NCBI GenBank assembly: GCA_947302865.1
Contig: CAMYWS010000108.1
Location: 1-5,144 of the forward strand
Length of the DNA: 5,144 bases
From: an uncultured Clostridia bacterium
GTDB taxonomy: Bacteria > Bacillota_A > Clostridia > Christensenellales > CAG-138
Reading direction: 5' to 3'
Shown: positions 1 through 5,144 of the stretch, piece after piece
Layout of the letters: each line of letters begins with the position of its first letter
How positions within the stretch are numbered: the stretch's first letter is position 1
Position numbers and translations under genes: made by a program
The notes under the pieces: model-generated
What the model saw: the letters and a program-made list of their open reading frames with translations, nothing else
Told to the model about the DNA's origin: nothing
Database searches by the model: none

Positions 1-497
1 AGAACGCGATCGAGCTGACGATCGAATACCGCAACAAGGACGGCCGCCGCGTGGTTGCGCCGAACGGCGCGCAGTCGATCAAGGATCTGTACGCGAACGG
101 CTACAAGCTCGGCATCATCTCAAACCTCGTCACCTCGCAGGAGATCCCGCGCTGGCTCAAAGCAGACGGTCTCGAACAGTATTTCGGCGCGGTGCTGCTC
201 TCCTGCGTGGAGGGGATCCGGAAGCCCGATCCAGCCATCTCCAACAAGGCGTGCGACATCCTCGGCGTGAAGCCGGAGCGCTGCGTCTACATCGGCGACA
301 ACCTGAACCGCGACGTCGAAGGCACGCGCCTTGCGGGCTACGGCATGTTCATCCTCTACACCACGCCGGAAAAGCTCGCGAAGGAAAAGATCACGGACGA
401 GAACCGTCCCGACGCGGTCATCTTCGATTTCAATGAACTCAAGGAGATCTTCCCGAAAGCGCCGCACGTCGCCTGGGACAAGGTACGGAGGGTATAA
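1..497 (+). CDS. HAD-family hydrolase, C-terminal part (5' end outside window)
   Basis: This is the C-terminal part of a haloacid dehalogenase (HAD) superfamily hydrolase, probably a cytosolic phosphatase acting on a small phosphorylated metabolite; the substrate is unknown. The reading frame is open from base 3, giving about 164 visible residues and a TAA at 495-497. Motif II is the Ser in 'LGIISNL', motif III the Lys in 'GIRKPDPAI', and motif IV 'YIGDNLNRD', the acidic Mg-binding loop. Motif I with the nucleophilic Asp lies upstream of the window. A GTG at base 51 could be taken as a start, but the residues before it ('TIEYRNKDG') still align with the next gene ('TYCFRRAKG'), so the true start is outside. 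The protein is a clear paralogue of the next gene, sharing the motifs and the ending 'ENRPD..IF.FNELKEIFP'. The two genes are separated by 2 bases and are surely co-transcribed. The family call is firm and the substrate is not known. Confidence 0.88.
   Translation, partial: NAIELTIEYRNKDGRRVVAPNGAQSIKDLYANGYKLGIISNLVTSQEIPRWLKADGLEQYFGAVLLSCVEGIRKPDPAISNKACDILGVKPERCVYIGDNLNRDVEGTRLAGYGMFILYTTPEKLAKEKITDENRPDAVIFDFNELKEIFPKAPHVAWDKVRRV
486..492 (+). promoter_or_regulatory. Ribosome binding site of the second HAD gene
   Basis: The sequence CGGAGGG lies inside the last codons of the upstream HAD gene, with 7 bases between it and the ATG at 500. It supports that start and suggests translational coupling, since the upstream stop (495-497) falls between this site and the start. 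Confidence 0.7.
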
Positions 498-499
498 GG

Positions 500-1276
500 A
501 TGCTGACGGATATCAAAGCTGTTTTTCTGGATCTCGGCGGCACGTTCCGCATTGTCGACGAGGACAACCTGCCGTTCATCCGCGAAGCGCGTTCGCGCAT
601 TAAGGAGCTGTGCGGCACGGATATGGACCCGGACGCGTTCTACGATTTTCTGAACAAGCGCTACGACGGTTACCGCGAGTGGGCGCTGAAGTATATGTGC
701 GAAGCACCGGAAGAAATGCTCTGGACGCGCTGGCTTGTGCCGGAATGGGACCGCGACCGGATCGAAAAAGCCGCCAAGGAGCTGACCTACTGCTTCCGCA
801 GGGCGAAAGGCGAGCGCGTCGTGGTCGAAAAGGGTATCGAAACGGTCAGGGAGCTTCGCAGACGCGGCTACAAGGTCGGCATCATCAGCGACCTCATCGG
901 CACGATCGAGATCGACGAATGGCTCGACCGCGACGGCATCCGCGACCTGTTCTGCACGGTGCAGCAAAGCTCTGTCACGATGCTGCGGAAACCGCATCCC
1001 GCGATCTATTTCCTTGCGCTTTCGGAAGCCGGCGTTCGTCCCGAGGAGAGCTGCTTCGTCGGCGACAACCTGAAGCGCGATATCATCGGCGCGAAGCAGT
1101 CCTGCTTTGCCGGCACGGTCGGCGCGGAGTACCCCGGCGGACTCGAGTTCAAGCTCACCGCGGAGAACCGACCGGACTGCATCATCCATCACTTTGACGA
1201 ACTCTTGAATGTTTTCCCGGGCGAAGGCAGATTCTGTCCCGAGGCCGCGGAGGATCCGACGCCGCGTATCCGGTAA
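500..1276 (+). CDS. HAD-family hydrolase with DxGGT motif I
   Basis: This is a complete 258-residue HAD superfamily hydrolase of the Rossmann-core type with a helical cap between motifs I and II. Motif I is 'FLDLGGTF' with the nucleophile Asp11. The usual second Asp (general acid/base) at position +2 is Gly13. Motif II is Ser130 in 'VGIISDL', motif III is Lys164 in 'LRKPHPAI', and motif IV is 'FVGDNLKRD' with Asp189 and Asp194. The cap is about residues 20-105 and rich in Trp, Arg and Glu, with no membrane segment or signal peptide, so it should be cytosolic. It is a tandem paralogue of the upstream gene. The ATG at 500 has a good Shine-Dalgarno and places motif I at the N-terminus as expected. 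DxGGT variants occur in annotated HAD proteins, so the change does not prove inactivity. It could be a phosphatase for a sugar phosphate or phosphoglycerate related to the downstream enzymes, but nothing in the sequence fixes the substrate. Confidence 0.9.
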   Translation: MLTDIKAVFLDLGGTFRIVDEDNLPFIREARSRIKELCGTDMDPDAFYDFLNKRYDGYREWALKYMCEAPEEMLWTRWLVPEWDRDRIEKAAKELTYCFRRAKGERVVVEKGIETVRELRRRGYKVGIISDLIGTIEIDEWLDRDGIRDLFCTVQQSSVTMLRKPHPAIYFLALSEAGVRPEESCFVGDNLKRDIIGAKQSCFAGTVGAEYPGGLEFKLTAENRPDCIIHHFDELLNVFPGEGRFCPEAAEDPTPRIR

Positions 1277-1283
1277 GGATCGG

Positions 1284-1290
1284 AAAGGAG
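1284..1290 (+). promoter_or_regulatory. Ribosome binding site deciding the start of the permuted mutase
   Basis: AAAGGAG lies 7 bases before the ATG at 1298, in the 21-base gap after the second HAD gene. It shows that the rearranged mutase has its own translation start at this point. The protein therefore truly begins in what is normally the middle of the family sequence. Confidence 0.8.
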
Positions 1291-1297
1291 AAACGAT

Positions 1298-2863
1298 ATG
1301 GCACAGTACAGGTTTTCCGGCGGCGAAGCGCTTGCGCGCGCTGTGGAAAAGCTTTATGAAAACGGCGGCTCGGAGTATCATTTCGAGCCGATGAACCTTG
1401 TCGACGCGAACGGCGGCGCGGTCGGGCTCGTCAGGCCGGGCGACGGCGTGATCTTCTGCTGCCGCAGAGGCGAGCGCGAAACCGAGCTCACCGACGCGTT
1501 CACCGACCCGGAGTTCAAGGGCTTTGCGCGTGAGAAGCTCGATCCTTTGGACTTCGTGATCCTCACCATGTACAGCGAGCGCTACACCTACCTTCCGATC
1601 GCGTTTGCGCCGAGCAAGGTGCAGAAGACGCTCGCCGAGGTGCTTGCCGAAAACGGCAAAACGCAGCTGCATCTTTCCGAGAGCGAGAAGTTCGCGCATG
1701 TGACCTTCTTCTTCAACGGCGGCAATCAGGTTCCGTTCCGGGGCGAGGACGATATCCGCATCCCGTCCCCGAAGGGCGTTCCGTTCGAGACCGTGCCGGA
1801 GCTGCGGCTCCCCGACGTCGCGCAGACGCTGTGCGACGGGCTCGACAAGGGCTATGATTTCATCGTCACAAACTTCGCGAACGGCGACGTCATCGGGCAT
1901 ACGTCGAGCGACGCGGCAAAGCCGGTCGCCTGCGAAGCGATCAGTAAATACGTCGGCAGGGTCGTCTCCCACGCCCGCGAACGCGGATACACGGTGCTCG
2001 TGACCGCTGACCACGGCAACATCGAGATCCTGCACACGCCGGAGGGCAAGCCGCACGTGTCGCACACGACGAACCTCGTCGCGTGCGTCGCGCTCGGACC
2101 GGACACGGAATTGATCAAGGACTCCGGCAGACTCTGCGACGTCGCGCCGACGATCCTGTCCGCGATGGGGCTTGAACAGCCCGCGGAAATGACCGGCTCG
2201 CCCCTGTTCCGCTTCGGCAAACCCGGCAAGGTGCTGCTTCTGATCTGTGACGGCTGGGGACTCGACAAGCCCACGGACAACAATCCGATCTTCACGGCGT
2301 CGACGCCGGAATGGGACATGCTGCTGGACAACTACCCTTATGCGAAGCTCGAAGCGTCCGGTCCCGCCGTCGGTCTCAAGGAAGGCAAGACGGGCAATTC
2401 CGAGGCGGGTCACATCAATCTCGGCTCGGGACGCGTGGTGCTGCAGGACGACGTGCGCCTCGACAACGCCATGAAGGACGGCTCGTTCGCCGAAAACCCG
2501 GTCTTCCTCAACACGCTCCGCGGCGTGAAGGAACGCGGCACGGCGCTGCATCTCTTTGCGCTGCTCACCAAGAAATCCTCGCACGGGTCGATCGACTATC
2601 CGCTCGCGCTGCTGGATATGGCGAAGAAAGCCGGCGTGCAGGATGTTTTCGTGCACGTCATCTTCGACGGCCGCTCCACGGAGCCCGGCAGCGCGCCGGC
2701 GCTTTTGCGCGAGTTCGGCGAAACGATCGAACAGAAGGGCGTCGGTCTCATTGTGTCCGGCGTCGGCAGAGGCGTCGCGCTCGACCGCGACCAGAACTGG
2801 GCAAAAATACAGCGTACCTACGCTTCGCTCGTCGAGGGCAAAGGCGCGCCGTACTGCGAATAA
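1298..2863 (+). CDS. Circularly permuted phosphoglycerate mutase (iPGM/GpmI family)
   Basis: This 521-residue member of the cofactor-independent phosphoglycerate mutase family (alkaline phosphatase superfamily, two metals, 3-phosphoglycerate to 2-phosphoglycerate) has its halves in reversed order. Residues ~11-305 match the family's C-terminal part (about 215-510 in the Geobacillus stearothermophilus enzyme, compared from memory). They carry Arg57 and Arg60 ('CCRRGER', normally 'NFRPDR'), Lys131 ('SESEKFAHVTFF'), Asp197 and His201 ('NFANGDVIGH'), Asp238-His239 ('TADHGN'), His256 ('SHTTN') and the usual ending 'EMTGSPL'. After a linker of a few residues (~305-309), the family N-terminus follows: Asp318 ('LLICDGWGL'), the phosphoserine nucleophile Ser368 ('TGNSEAGH'), His429, Arg459, Arg491 and Arg497 ('DRDQNW'), ending at 'LVEGKGAPYCE'. 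The phosphatase domain becomes contiguous (~106-382); the transferase domain is split (~1-105 and ~383-521). All metal ligands and the nucleophile remain. The Asp after 'DGR' is Ser460, and the 'SDGGVHSH' loop reads 'TKKSSHGS'. Mutase activity is likely but unproven; a shifted substrate is possible. There is no signal peptide, so it should be cytosolic. Confidence 0.9.
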   Translation: MAQYRFSGGEALARAVEKLYENGGSEYHFEPMNLVDANGGAVGLVRPGDGVIFCCRRGERETELTDAFTDPEFKGFAREKLDPLDFVILTMYSERYTYLPIAFAPSKVQKTLAEVLAENGKTQLHLSESEKFAHVTFFFNGGNQVPFRGEDDIRIPSPKGVPFETVPELRLPDVAQTLCDGLDKGYDFIVTNFANGDVIGHTSSDAAKPVACEAISKYVGRVVSHARERGYTVLVTADHGNIEILHTPEGKPHVSHTTNLVACVALGPDTELIKDSGRLCDVAPTILSAMGLEQPAEMTGSPLFRFGKPGKVLLLICDGWGLDKPTDNNPIFTASTPEWDMLLDNYPYAKLEASGPAVGLKEGKTGNSEAGHINLGSGRVVLQDDVRLDNAMKDGSFAENPVFLNTLRGVKERGTALHLFALLTKKSSHGSIDYPLALLDMAKKAGVQDVFVHVIFDGRSTEPGSAPALLREFGETIEQKGVGLIVSGVGRGVALDRDQNWAKIQRTYASLVEGKGAPYCE

Positions 2864-2877
2864 AAGAGTATCATTTG

Positions 2878-2885
2878 ACGGAGGT
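2878..2885 (+). promoter_or_regulatory. Ribosome binding site of the IolG-like gene
   Basis: ACGGAGGT is a near-consensus Shine-Dalgarno ending 5 bases before the ATG at 2891, within the 27-base gap after the mutase stop codon. It fixes the start so that the Rossmann glycine motif begins at residue 8, as is usual in this family. Confidence 0.75.
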
Positions 2886-2890
2886 AACTT

Positions 2891-3904
2891 ATGGTTAACG
2901 TCGGTATCATCGGCGCGGGCCGCATCGGACAGGTCCACGCAAAGAGCATCCTCACGGGCGTGCCGGATGCAAAGATCCTCGCGATCGCGGATCCGTACAT
3001 CAAGCCCGAAGTCGCCGAATGGGCAAAGTCCGTCGGCGTCGAGAACGTGTACAGAGACCATCGGCAGATCCTCGAGGATCCGCGCATCGACGCGGTTCTG
3101 ATCTGCGCGTCCACCGATCAGCACGCGTCGCTTTCTCTGGAAGCCATCGCGGCAGGCAAGCACATCTTCTGCGAAAAGCCGATCGACCAGAGCATCGCGA
3201 AGATCGAGGAAGTCAAGGCGGCGCTGGCGGCTTCGCCGAAGAAGCTCGTCTATCAGGTCGGGTTCAACCGCCGCTACGACCACAACTACCGCGCCATGCG
3301 CAAAGCCGTCGAGGACGGCAAGATCGGCGAGGTACAGTTCGTGCGCGTCAGCTCGCGCGACCCGGAGCCCCCGCCCGCAAAGTACGTCGCGGCGTCCGGC
3401 GGCATGTTCATGGATATGATGATCCACGACCTCGATATGGTCCGCTACCTCTCCGGGCTCGAGATCGTCGAGGTGTACGCGCAGGGCGCGTGCCTTATCG
3501 ATCCCGCGATCGGCGAAGCGGGCGACGTGGACACGGTCACGATCACGCTGAAGCTATCCAACGGCGCGCTTGCGACGATCGACGGCTCCCGCAAGGCGGT
3601 GTACGGCTACGATCAGCGCGGCGAGGTCTTCGGCTCGAAGGGCTGCGTGGTCAGCGCGAACGATTCCGATTCAAACATCGTGCTCTCCACGGTCGAGGGC
3701 GTGACCGCCGAAAAGCCGCTGTGGTTCTTCCTCGAGCGCTACATGGGTTCGTATCAGGCGGAGGTCCGCGAATTCATCGACTGCGTGAAGAACGGCAGGG
3801 AACCGTGGGTCGGCATCGAGGACGGGCTTCTGTCCATCCGCCTCGCGCTCGCGTGCACCAAGTCCATGAACGAAAACCGTCCCGTCCGCATCGACGAGAT
3901 CTGA
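2891..3904 (+). CDS. iolG: Gfo/Idh/MocA oxidoreductase, probable inositol 2-dehydrogenase
   Basis: This 337-residue NAD-dependent dehydrogenase would oxidise myo-inositol (or a similar cyclitol or sugar) to a 2-keto product in the cytosol, the entry step of inositol catabolism. The N-terminal Rossmann domain shows 'GAGRIG' (residues 8-13) and Asp34 in 'AIADP' at the end of strand 2, which favours NAD over NADP. The family motif 'EKP' gives the catalytic Lys96. The C-terminal domain holds 'GFNRRYDHNY' (124-133), 'SSRDPEPPP' (154-162), and 'GGMFMDMMIHDLDM' with Asp175 and His179 as the likely catalytic pair. 'DPAIGEAGDVDT' and 'AVYGYDQRGEVFGSKG' follow, and the string of blocks is characteristic of IolG rather than of generic family members. 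The length is normal for the family. It lies 27 bases after the mutase gene and 27 before the dehydrogenase gene. No other iol gene is visible in the window, so a scyllo-inositol or other sugar substrate remains possible. Confidence 0.85.
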   Translation: MVNVGIIGAGRIGQVHAKSILTGVPDAKILAIADPYIKPEVAEWAKSVGVENVYRDHRQILEDPRIDAVLICASTDQHASLSLEAIAAGKHIFCEKPIDQSIAKIEEVKAALAASPKKLVYQVGFNRRYDHNYRAMRKAVEDGKIGEVQFVRVSSRDPEPPPAKYVAASGGMFMDMMIHDLDMVRYLSGLEIVEVYAQGACLIDPAIGEAGDVDTVTITLKLSNGALATIDGSRKAVYGYDQRGEVFGSKGCVVSANDSDSNIVLSTVEGVTAEKPLWFFLERYMGSYQAEVREFIDCVKNGREPWVGIEDGLLSIRLALACTKSMNENRPVRIDEI

Positions 3905-3931: not shown

Positions 3932-4987
3932 ATGGCAAAAATCAGAGTCGGCGTTGCCGGATACGGCACGATCGGTCAGCGTCTGGCTGACGGCGTCGCC
4001 CTGCAGGGCGATATGGAACTCGTGGGCATTGCGGATCTCGCTCCGACGCTGTCGATCCGCGCGCTCCGCGAAAACGATATGATCGGCGCAAACAACGTCA
4101 AGTATAACCTGTACCTCGTCGACGGTGCGGACAGGGAAGCGTTCGACCGCTACGACATCCCGGTCGCGGGCACGTTCGAGGAGCTGTGCAGAAGCGTCGA
4201 TATCATGCTGGATTCTTCGCCGGGCGGCGTCGGCGCAAAGAACAAGGAACTGTATGAGAAGGTCGGCGTCAAGGCGATCTTCCAGGGCGGCGAGAAAAAC
4301 TCCGTCGCGGACGTGTTCTTCCACGGCTACGCAAACTACGAAAAGGGCGTAGGTCAGAACTATCTGAAGCTCACAAGCTGCAACACCACAGGCCTCATCC
4401 GCGCGGTGGACTGCCTCGACCGCATCATCGGCATTGAGAAGGTCGCGATCACGATCATCCGCCGCGTCGCGGATCCCGGTGATTATCACCGCGGACTGAC
4501 GAACGCTTTGCAGATCGACAAGGCGCCGTCGCATCAGGCGGTCGACCTGATGACGATCATGCCGCACGTCCAGGCAACGGGCATCCTCGTCCATACGCCG
4601 GTCACGCACGGGCACATCATCACCGTGCTTGCGACCGCAAAGGACGGCAAAAAGATTACCCGCGAGATGGCGCTCGAGGCGTTCCGCAAGCATCCGCGCA
4701 TCCGCACGGTCACGATCGACGAGGGCTTCAAGGGCAACGCGAGTCTCTTCAAGTACGCGCGCGATCTCGGCAACCGCAGAGGCGACATGTACGAGATCGG
4801 TCTCTGGGAGGACAGCATCGTCGAGAGCGGCAACGACATCATGTACGCGATCAACATCCCGCAGGAGAGCGTCACGATCCCCGAAACGATCGACGCGATC
4901 CGCGCCGCCATGAAGATGCAGCTCACCTGCGAAGAGGGCACGGCAAAGACCAACGAATACCTGAAGATCGGACGTTTCAAGAAGTAA
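3932..4987 (+). CDS. gap: Type II (archaeal-type) glyceraldehyde-3-phosphate dehydrogenase
   Basis: This 351-residue enzyme should oxidise and phosphorylate glyceraldehyde-3-phosphate to 1,3-bisphosphoglycerate with NAD(P). It belongs to the archaeal (type II) family, not the usual bacterial GapA. The N-terminal Rossmann loop is 'AGYGTIGQR' (9-17). Family hallmarks follow: 'AGTFEEL' (79-85), 'SSPGGVGAKNK' (95-105), 'AIFQGGEK' (115-122) and 'SCNTTGL' with catalytic Cys150. Later blocks are 'RRVADP' (177-182), 'THGHI' with the likely catalytic His at 226 or 228, 'KYARDLGNRRGDMYEI' (274-289), 'LWEDSI' (291-296) and the typical ending 'KTNEYLKIG'. Bacterial GAPDH has 'SCTTNCLAP' instead, so the type is clear. 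At the end of strand 2, where archaeal enzymes commonly have a Lys contacting the NADP 2'-phosphate, this protein has Asp35, which suggests NAD preference. It precedes phosphoglycerate kinase by 24 bases, matching the next pathway step. Action on another aldehyde phosphate such as erythrose-4-phosphate cannot be excluded. Confidence 0.9.
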   Translation: MAKIRVGVAGYGTIGQRLADGVALQGDMELVGIADLAPTLSIRALRENDMIGANNVKYNLYLVDGADREAFDRYDIPVAGTFEELCRSVDIMLDSSPGGVGAKNKELYEKVGVKAIFQGGEKNSVADVFFHGYANYEKGVGQNYLKLTSCNTTGLIRAVDCLDRIIGIEKVAITIIRRVADPGDYHRGLTNALQIDKAPSHQAVDLMTIMPHVQATGILVHTPVTHGHIITVLATAKDGKKITREMALEAFRKHPRIRTVTIDEGFKGNASLFKYARDLGNRRGDMYEIGLWEDSIVESGNDIMYAINIPQESVTIPETIDAIRAAMKMQLTCEEGTAKTNEYLKIGRFKK

Positions 4988-5011: not shown

Positions 5012-5144
5012 ATGCGATTCGGGATCAGAACGCTGGATGAACTTTCGGTACGCGGAAAGACGGTCCTGTGCCGCGTGGATATCAATCAACCCGTGGATCG
5101 TGATGCGGGGACGCTGAAAAGCATCAACCGCATCACGGCCTGCG
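5012..5144 (+). CDS. pgk: Phosphoglycerate kinase, N-terminal part (runs off window), archaeal-like
   Basis: The first 44 codons of a phosphoglycerate kinase are visible; the frame is open to the window edge. This cytosolic enzyme transfers phosphate from 1,3-bisphosphoglycerate to ADP. The visible part contains 'RGKTVLCRVDINQP' (14-27), the conserved first strand and substrate-binding loop. Asp23 and Asn25 sit where the family binds 3-phosphoglycerate, and Arg40 in 'NRIT' corresponds to the conserved substrate-binding Arg. The opening 'RTLDEL' and the 'VDINQPVD..AG' form resemble archaeal kinases ('VDINSP.DP..G') more than the bacterial 'VDFNVP...G' form, in agreement with the archaeal-type GAPDH just upstream. 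With so little sequence the family call is good and the archaeal affiliation is moderate. Whether the C-terminal nucleotide-binding domain is intact cannot be seen. Confidence 0.8.
   Translation, partial: MRFGIRTLDELSVRGKTVLCRVDINQPVDRDAGTLKSINRITAC

Follow-up and report, generated by a model that had tools for sequence, protein, structure and literature searches.

In canonical cofactor-independent phosphoglycerate mutase (iPGM; GpmI/GpmM, TIGR01307, structures 1ejj and 1o98), two hinge peptides connect the phosphatase and transferase domains, and His, Asp, and Arg residues bind phosphoglycerate (PMC5382265). TM0415 (PDB 5ysp, 1vk4) is a PPi-dependent inositol kinase with Ins(1)P as its product, and two tested homologues gave other isomers; the PPi-dependent signature comprises K171, F221, R229, R232, and M266, and the inositol contacts are D11, N78, Q141, and R145 (PMC5931981). 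PTP-like phytases are represented by PDB entries 1u24 and 3f41. Two types of iol catabolism bear on the present locus, one built on IolG/E/B/D and the other on IolG/M/N/O, the latter being assigned to Thermotoga.

The window, that is the whole stretch of 5,144 nucleotides analysed here (contig CAMYWS010000108.1 of an uncultured Clostridia bacterium), encodes an iPGM-family protein that we refer to as cp-iPGM. It resembles GpmI/GpmM in its two domains, with halves aligning nearly end to end, and in the presence of the dimetal ligands, the Ser nucleophile, and most substrate residues. In contrast to GpmI/GpmM, the halves are swapped, Asp154 is replaced by Ser, the gene company is non-glycolytic, and the protein coexists with another phosphoglycerate mutase (PGM). 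A neighbouring kinase shares with TM0415 an RTGRGD motif, four of the signature residues, and the inositol contacts, but differs at F221 and is accompanied by HAD hydrolases, an importer, and, at some loci, a pyrophosphatase. As in IolG/E/B/D-type catabolism, genes for IolG, IolE, IolD, and an IolB-like protein lie 3' of the permuted gene in the window's clade, and loci L038 and L070 resemble the IolG/M/N/O type. However, an importer, tandem HADs, and the permuted mutase come first here, and we know of no described iol operon preceded by this set of genes. One further locus, L062, encodes a protein homologous to PTP-like phytases over most of its length, but this copy (L062:6690-7682) has no obvious signal peptide by eye and is encoded among HADs.

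Chain order of the window protein

A preliminary description of the window, made from its sequence, held that the iPGM motif blocks of the gene at 1298-2863 occur in rotated order, that the two halves meet with little gap, and that the old ends are joined by a few residues within an intact frame having its own ribosome binding site. Profile search and alignment bore this out. Against TIGR01307, cp-iPGM scored 466.9 bits (curated cut-off 330.65), with homology spanning both iPGM domains, in two stretches whose model coordinates are swapped; the best stretch aligned residues 13-304 with model positions 214-504. Alignment with chain A of 1ejj (Bst iPGM) agreed, placing residues 15-303 on 219-508 and residues 312-519 on 6-213 with an 8-residue junction between the old ends, and the 521-aa ORF starts with ATG behind AAAGGAG (Table 1). 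The canonical order P1-T1-T2-P2 was thus not found in the window protein. The domain boundaries used, 76/77 and 310/311 in Bst iPGM, are those we take to apply. Both domains of the window protein displayed the iPGM fold; since Foldseek and VIA are sequence-order aligners, the permuted model was not superposable on iPGM as one piece. A long antisense ORF (356-3427, 1023 aa) was treated as a high-GC shadow.

Table 1. Coordinates and residues of features in the window
Feature	Position	Strand	Remarks
HAD hydrolase A	3..497	+	5' end beyond window; counterpart is third of four tandem HADs in L001
HAD hydrolase B	500..1276	+	directly upstream of cp-iPGM
Ribosome binding site AAAGGAG	1284..1290	+	7 nt 5' of ATG; read from sequence
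cp-iPGM CDS	1298..2863	+	521 aa, iPGM family; order T2-P2-P1-T1, canonical P1-T1-T2-P2
T2, second half of transferase domain	1340..1612	+	residues 15-105 ~ Bst iPGM 219-310
FCCRRGER in T2			R57, R60 ~ R261, R264; alignment
P2, main part of phosphatase domain	1613..2206	+	residues 106-303 ~ Bst 311-508
P2 residues			K131, D197, H201, D238, H239, H256
Junction, old C-terminus to old N-terminus	2207..2230	+	8 residues; alignment
P1, old N-terminus of phosphatase domain	2231..2443	+	residues 312-382 ~ Bst 6-76
P1 residues			D318 and nucleophile S368 ~ D12, S62; alignment
T1, first half of transferase domain, now C-terminal	2444..2854	+	residues 383-519 ~ Bst 77-213
T1 residues			H429, R459, R491, R497
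S460 codon (DGRST)	2675..2677	+	Asp154 (DGRD) in canonical iPGM
IolG, myo-inositol 2-dehydrogenase	2891..3904	+	TIGR04380, 447.8 bits, cut-off 355
Type II (archaeal-type) glyceraldehyde-3-phosphate dehydrogenase	3932..4987	+	NF003251, 391 bits, cut-off 185
Phosphoglycerate kinase, gene start	5012..5144	+	cut by window end; full-length counterpart in L001

The chain is opened after Bst residue ~213, a point within the transferase domain, and closed by fusion of the old ends. Therefore, the phosphatase domain is continuous and the transferase domain is split over both termini. As judged from the mapping, both inter-domain connections of iPGM are preserved in cp-iPGM. The preliminary description knew of no circularly permuted iPGM; likewise, we found none described in the open-licence literature, as far as its accessible parts go, nor a report on catalysis by the permuted family in that literature.

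Distribution and origin of the permuted family

The search for other proteins with the rotated order, suggested by the preliminary description, showed that it recurs: the swapped motif order occurred in the query and in each of the top 120 of 7885 matched homologues. When species genomes were scanned with two patterns derived from A1, 282 stretches matched; a relative is encoded in 223 of them, and 80 loci were kept. Genes at these loci were called by a codon-score method, yielding 81 copies of which 80 are permuted and one is partial. According to the record titles, the loci stem mainly from Clostridia-type metagenome-assembled genomes, many from rumen or gut, and also from Spirochaetes; they further include one contig of Leptolinea (Chloroflexota), and the strain Butyricicoccus pullicaecorum ET57. 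Among 60 other genomes drawn evenly from the phylum of this strain, two carried a permuted copy.

For a maximum-likelihood tree, 30 permuted sequences picked from the 81 at <80% identity were rotated back and combined with 44 canonical iPGMs. A branch supported at 100/100 separated all 30 permuted rows from the canonical ones. One origin of the permutation is the simplest reading of this tree, although it is not proven because the root was placed at the midpoint.

These data also bear on whether the permuted order reflects an assembly artefact or a misread tandem duplicate. The 80 loci are mostly from metagenome-assembled genomes, which would suit such an explanation, but the rotated order is shared by the best 120 of 7885 homologues and by 80 of the 81 locus genes (the other being partial), contigs reach 324 kb, one locus comes from a named strain, and the permuted copies form one supported group in the tree. 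With the order common to homologues, loci, and tree group, we rejected artefact, frameshift, and tandem duplicate alike, an error of this kind being exceedingly improbable.

Two individual copies deserve mention. The permuted homologue P0078 has 243/290 identities to the window protein in its first half and 123/216 in its second, and is either a product of recombination or an assembly error; its longest contig has 2,910 bases. Locus L043 has a second permuted gene on the same contig as the first; one of the pair is diverged and lacks the DGR motif.

Active site and companion phosphoglycerate mutases

Active-site residues were mapped by the alignment of cp-iPGM with 1ejj_A and counted over 79 permuted rows. 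The metal and nucleophile residues D12, S62, D403, H407, D444, H445, and H462 were kept in all 79 rows, as were H123, R185, R261, R264, and K336, and both R153 and R191 were kept in 78. In contrast, the position of Asp154, which we take to contact the substrate in iPGM, is occupied by Ser in 80 of 81 permuted rows (scored by the DGR motif, with two basal-clade rows added), the exception being L043_3, the diverged second copy. DGR-Asp was found in 43 of 44 canonical rows, and the remaining row does not match the pattern. Of the residues presumed to form the phosphoglycerate-contact set (H123, R153, D154, R185, R191, R261, R264, and K336), the window protein retains every one but D154, which is Ser. 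Furthermore, two active-site segments are altered family-wide in the permuted copies, GGVHSH to KSSHGS and NFRPDR to CRRGER.

Ahead of neighbour annotation, 24 genomes were picked from the 80 loci and searched for other PGMs. A full-length canonical iPGM over the cut-off was present in 19, and the five without one all have a dPGM over the cut-off. Of the two basal-clade genomes, G060 has an iPGM and G073 an ApgM, with dPGM over the cut-off absent from both. Another recognised PGM over its family cut-off thus occurs in all 26 permuted-gene genomes examined, a set that does not include the window's own genome, and in none of them is the permuted protein the sole PGM. We concluded that the permuted family is a paralogue of iPGM. 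The label 'phosphoglycerate mutase' is doubtful for it because Asp154 is Ser in 80/81 rows and another PGM occurs in 26/26 genomes. The preliminary description was right about the circular permutation, while its working function of phosphoglycerate mutase was not supported in view of these two results, the altered active-site segments, and the genomic company.

That the protein is nevertheless a working PGM, merely permuted, we regard as unlikely. In the window, such an enzyme would act with type II glyceraldehyde-3-phosphate dehydrogenase (GAPDH-II) and phosphoglycerate kinase (PGK) as a lower-glycolysis segment for triose phosphate from inositol catabolism. The retained canonical metal, Ser, Arg, Lys, and His residues and the TIGR01307 score above the equivalog cut-off are consistent with this role, as are the GAPDH-II and PGK genes downstream in the window, which recur in 27 and 25 of the 80 loci, respectively (PGK without GAPDH-II in L031 and L032). 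It is opposed by the additional PGMs, by the replacement of Asp154, and by the lack of GAPDH-II in 53 of 80 loci, some of which are cut by contig ends. At these frequencies, GAPDH-II and PGK were rejected as generally defining partners.

The same substitution raises a second alternative, a pure phosphatase that would join the HADs as a further phosphatase for inositol phosphates: as Asp154 is lost and the KSSHGS loop altered, only the phosphoserine half-reaction would take place, followed by attack of water. Asp154 belongs to the transferase half, 80/81 rows carry a different residue there, and phosphatase-family genes abound in the operon. However, the entire transferase domain is conserved without obvious need in a hydrolase, including Arg185, Arg261, and Arg264 in 79/79 rows and Arg153 and Arg191 in 78/79. 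We consider a pure phosphatase somewhat unlikely.

Gene neighbourhood and candidate function

Directly upstream of the permuted gene, at least one same-strand HAD gene of one family was found in 74 of 80 loci, and three or four in 57; three of the six loci without an upstream HAD are at a contig edge. Other neighbours were counted by sequence clusters, each of which took its name from one or two members, and many loci are cut by contig ends. By this count, a LacI regulator occurs in 57 of the 80 loci, the kinase in 51, any iol gene in 32 (IolG in 31), an MgtC-like protein in 30 (the two members tested score below the NCBIfam cut-off), ABC importer parts in 27, a PHP-domain protein in 26, and a membrane pyrophosphatase in 25, the matching model being named sodium-translocating (predicted ion). 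In the window's clade, the genes encoding IolG, GAPDH-II, PGK, a LarA-family malate racemase, IolE, an IolB-like protein, and IolD follow; IolG, IolE, and IolD are over their cut-offs and the IolB-like protein is below it (95 bits, cut-off 205). In L038 and L070, IolM and IolN are over the cut-off, an IolO-like protein is below it, and IolG was assigned by similarity (a fragment in L070).

Several further features of these loci were observed. The archaeal-type GAPDH and PGK of the window sit within an inositol catabolic operon, and the operon of L001 also encodes a nickel-dependent malate racemase (LarAH6; L001:14983-16233) whose cluster occurs in 22/80 loci. By a simple pattern, motif I of the tandem HADs reads DxGxT, not DxDxT, in 241 of 256. 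A gene for tagaturonate epimerase UxaE (L038:11642-12979) lies directly 3' of the permuted gene. A short protein of ~195 aa with no Pfam match (L042:3968-4552; cluster in 10 loci) is encoded between an SBP, which itself gave no match in the PDB, and a HAD. A predicted 609-aa ORF (L152:13251-15080) combines an endonuclease/exonuclease/phosphatase domain with a following HAD and may be a fusion or two genes. In L156, a HAD and a xylose-isomerase-like TIM barrel share one ORF adjoining the kinase module (L156:2418-4127), a reading made unsure by an overlapping ORF.

The locus kinase is related to TM0415 (E 1e-35). Of 52 copies called, 51 are full length, and in all 51 the RTGRGD motif, K171, R229, R232, and M266, as well as the inositol contacts D11, N78, Q141, and R145, are kept; F221 is Leu, Val, or Ile throughout, so that four of five signature residues are present. 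Five copies outside permuted loci keep RXGRGD; one of these, encoded in L156 of the Leptolinea genome, has other residues at N78 and M266 but retains F221. Butyricicoccus carries a kinase module (PHP, ABC importer, LacI, HAD, MgtC-like, kinase) on another contig, which has no permuted gene.

Co-occurrence was determined in 80 genomes, namely 24 main-clade genomes, 54 without a permuted gene, and two of the basal clade. The kinase (E <= 1e-15) was found in 24/24, 1/54, and 0/2 of these, respectively, and IolG over the cut-off in 22/24 (not found in the other two), 3/54 (5/54 at a looser E of 1e-60), and 0/2. Fisher tests on the 24 versus 54 genomes gave p = 3e-19 for the kinase and 4e-14 for IolG; both values are underestimates, since the genomes share ancestry and sampling differed between the two groups. 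Missing inositol monophosphatase was uninformative as support, PF00459 occurring in 9/24 permuted-gene genomes and 9/54 controls. The phytase homologue of L062 (E 1.3e-103 to phytase 3f41) is encoded after the first of the four HADs that precede cp-iPGM and ahead of the second; as it was found in only 1/24 genomes, a PTP-like phytase was rejected as a general partner. The genes between the HADs and the kinase in L156 specify two PiT-type phosphate permeases and a DUF47 protein, which would be expected if much phosphate were released intracellularly.

The basal clade presents a different setting. L148 and L149 encode a GntR regulator, a cyclic 2,3-diphosphoglycerate synthetase-like protein (L148:2864-4207, L149:1916-3256; homologues carry PF27272 and the source-given name), a PhnS2/PhnU2/PhnT2-like importer scoring below the model cut-offs, and the permuted gene, which has DGR-Ser here too. 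Cyclic 2,3-diphosphoglycerate synthetase is an enzyme known from archaea. No HAD was found near the permuted gene in either locus, and neither the kinase (E <= 1e-15) nor IolG over the cut-off was found in the two basal-clade genomes; therefore, not all permuted copies can be covered by the inositol reading. The theme common to both clades is that an importer of this type adjoins the permuted gene. The basal pairing of the permuted gene with this importer and the synthetase-like gene would fit another imported vicinal organophosphate, such as 2,3-bisphosphoglycerate, as the substrate in all permuted clades. This appears quite unlikely, as in the main clade the permuted gene has a near one-to-one link with the kinase, whose inositol-binding residues are kept in 51/51, and a phytase is encoded within one main-clade operon.

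Gene company and co-occurrence lead us to infer that the main-clade substrate is a myo-inositol phosphate rather than phosphoglycerate, and inositol phosphate as the substrate class seems reasonably probable. With nearly the same confidence, we favour the view that the permuted iPGM paralogue of the main clade, including that of the window, acts as a phosphomutase or phosphatase on inositol phosphates; between these two activities, we lean only slightly towards the mutase. The retained PGM residues speak against the inositol reading in that they fit plain PGM activity, as do GAPDH-II and PGK, which are encoded next in the window and could mean lower glycolysis. Inositol phosphates offer vicinal hydroxyls just as phosphoglycerate does. 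A phosphoserine enzyme formed on S368 with two bound metals would move or remove phosphate on a vicinal diol, with Arg and Lys residues holding the substrate, and the phosphate would pass from S368 to the adjacent hydroxyl (mutase) or to water (phosphatase).

In the cytosolic route proposed here, inositol phosphates would be imported by the ABC importer and dephosphorylated stepwise by the tandem HAD phosphatases, with the help of the phytase in one locus. Then, cp-iPGM would reposition or remove a phosphate, the PPi-dependent inositol kinase would interconvert inositol phosphate and inositol, and IolG would feed the product into the iol pathway. We found no description of a cytosolic inositol phosphate pathway of this kind among the titles and opening abstract lines of the open-licence literature, and the term 'ABC transporter' does not occur in PMC12482443. 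A more specific and distinctly speculative version, which we consider improbable, is that the permuted enzyme is an inositol monophosphate mutase shifting a phosphate left by the HADs, e.g. the axial 2-phosphate. With the phosphate in a neighbouring position, the TM0415-type kinase could work in reverse (InsP + Pi to inositol + PPi), and the PPi would be converted into an ion gradient by the linked membrane pyrophosphatase. If true, the phosphoester energy of plant inositol phosphates would be conserved without ATP.

In the permuted family, a metabolic enzyme of two domains has been circularly permuted in nature, and its many descendants exist alongside the unpermuted parent family. How chain order influences domain closure and specificity is directly testable with the permuted and unpermuted families. 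In several source records permuted proteins are named phosphoglycerate mutase, a name that may be wrong. If the broader inositol phosphate reading of the main clade is true, rumen and gut Clostridia and Spirochaetes would possess an undescribed cytosolic inositol phosphate route, which would bear on phytate and phosphorus use and possibly on PPi-based energy conservation.
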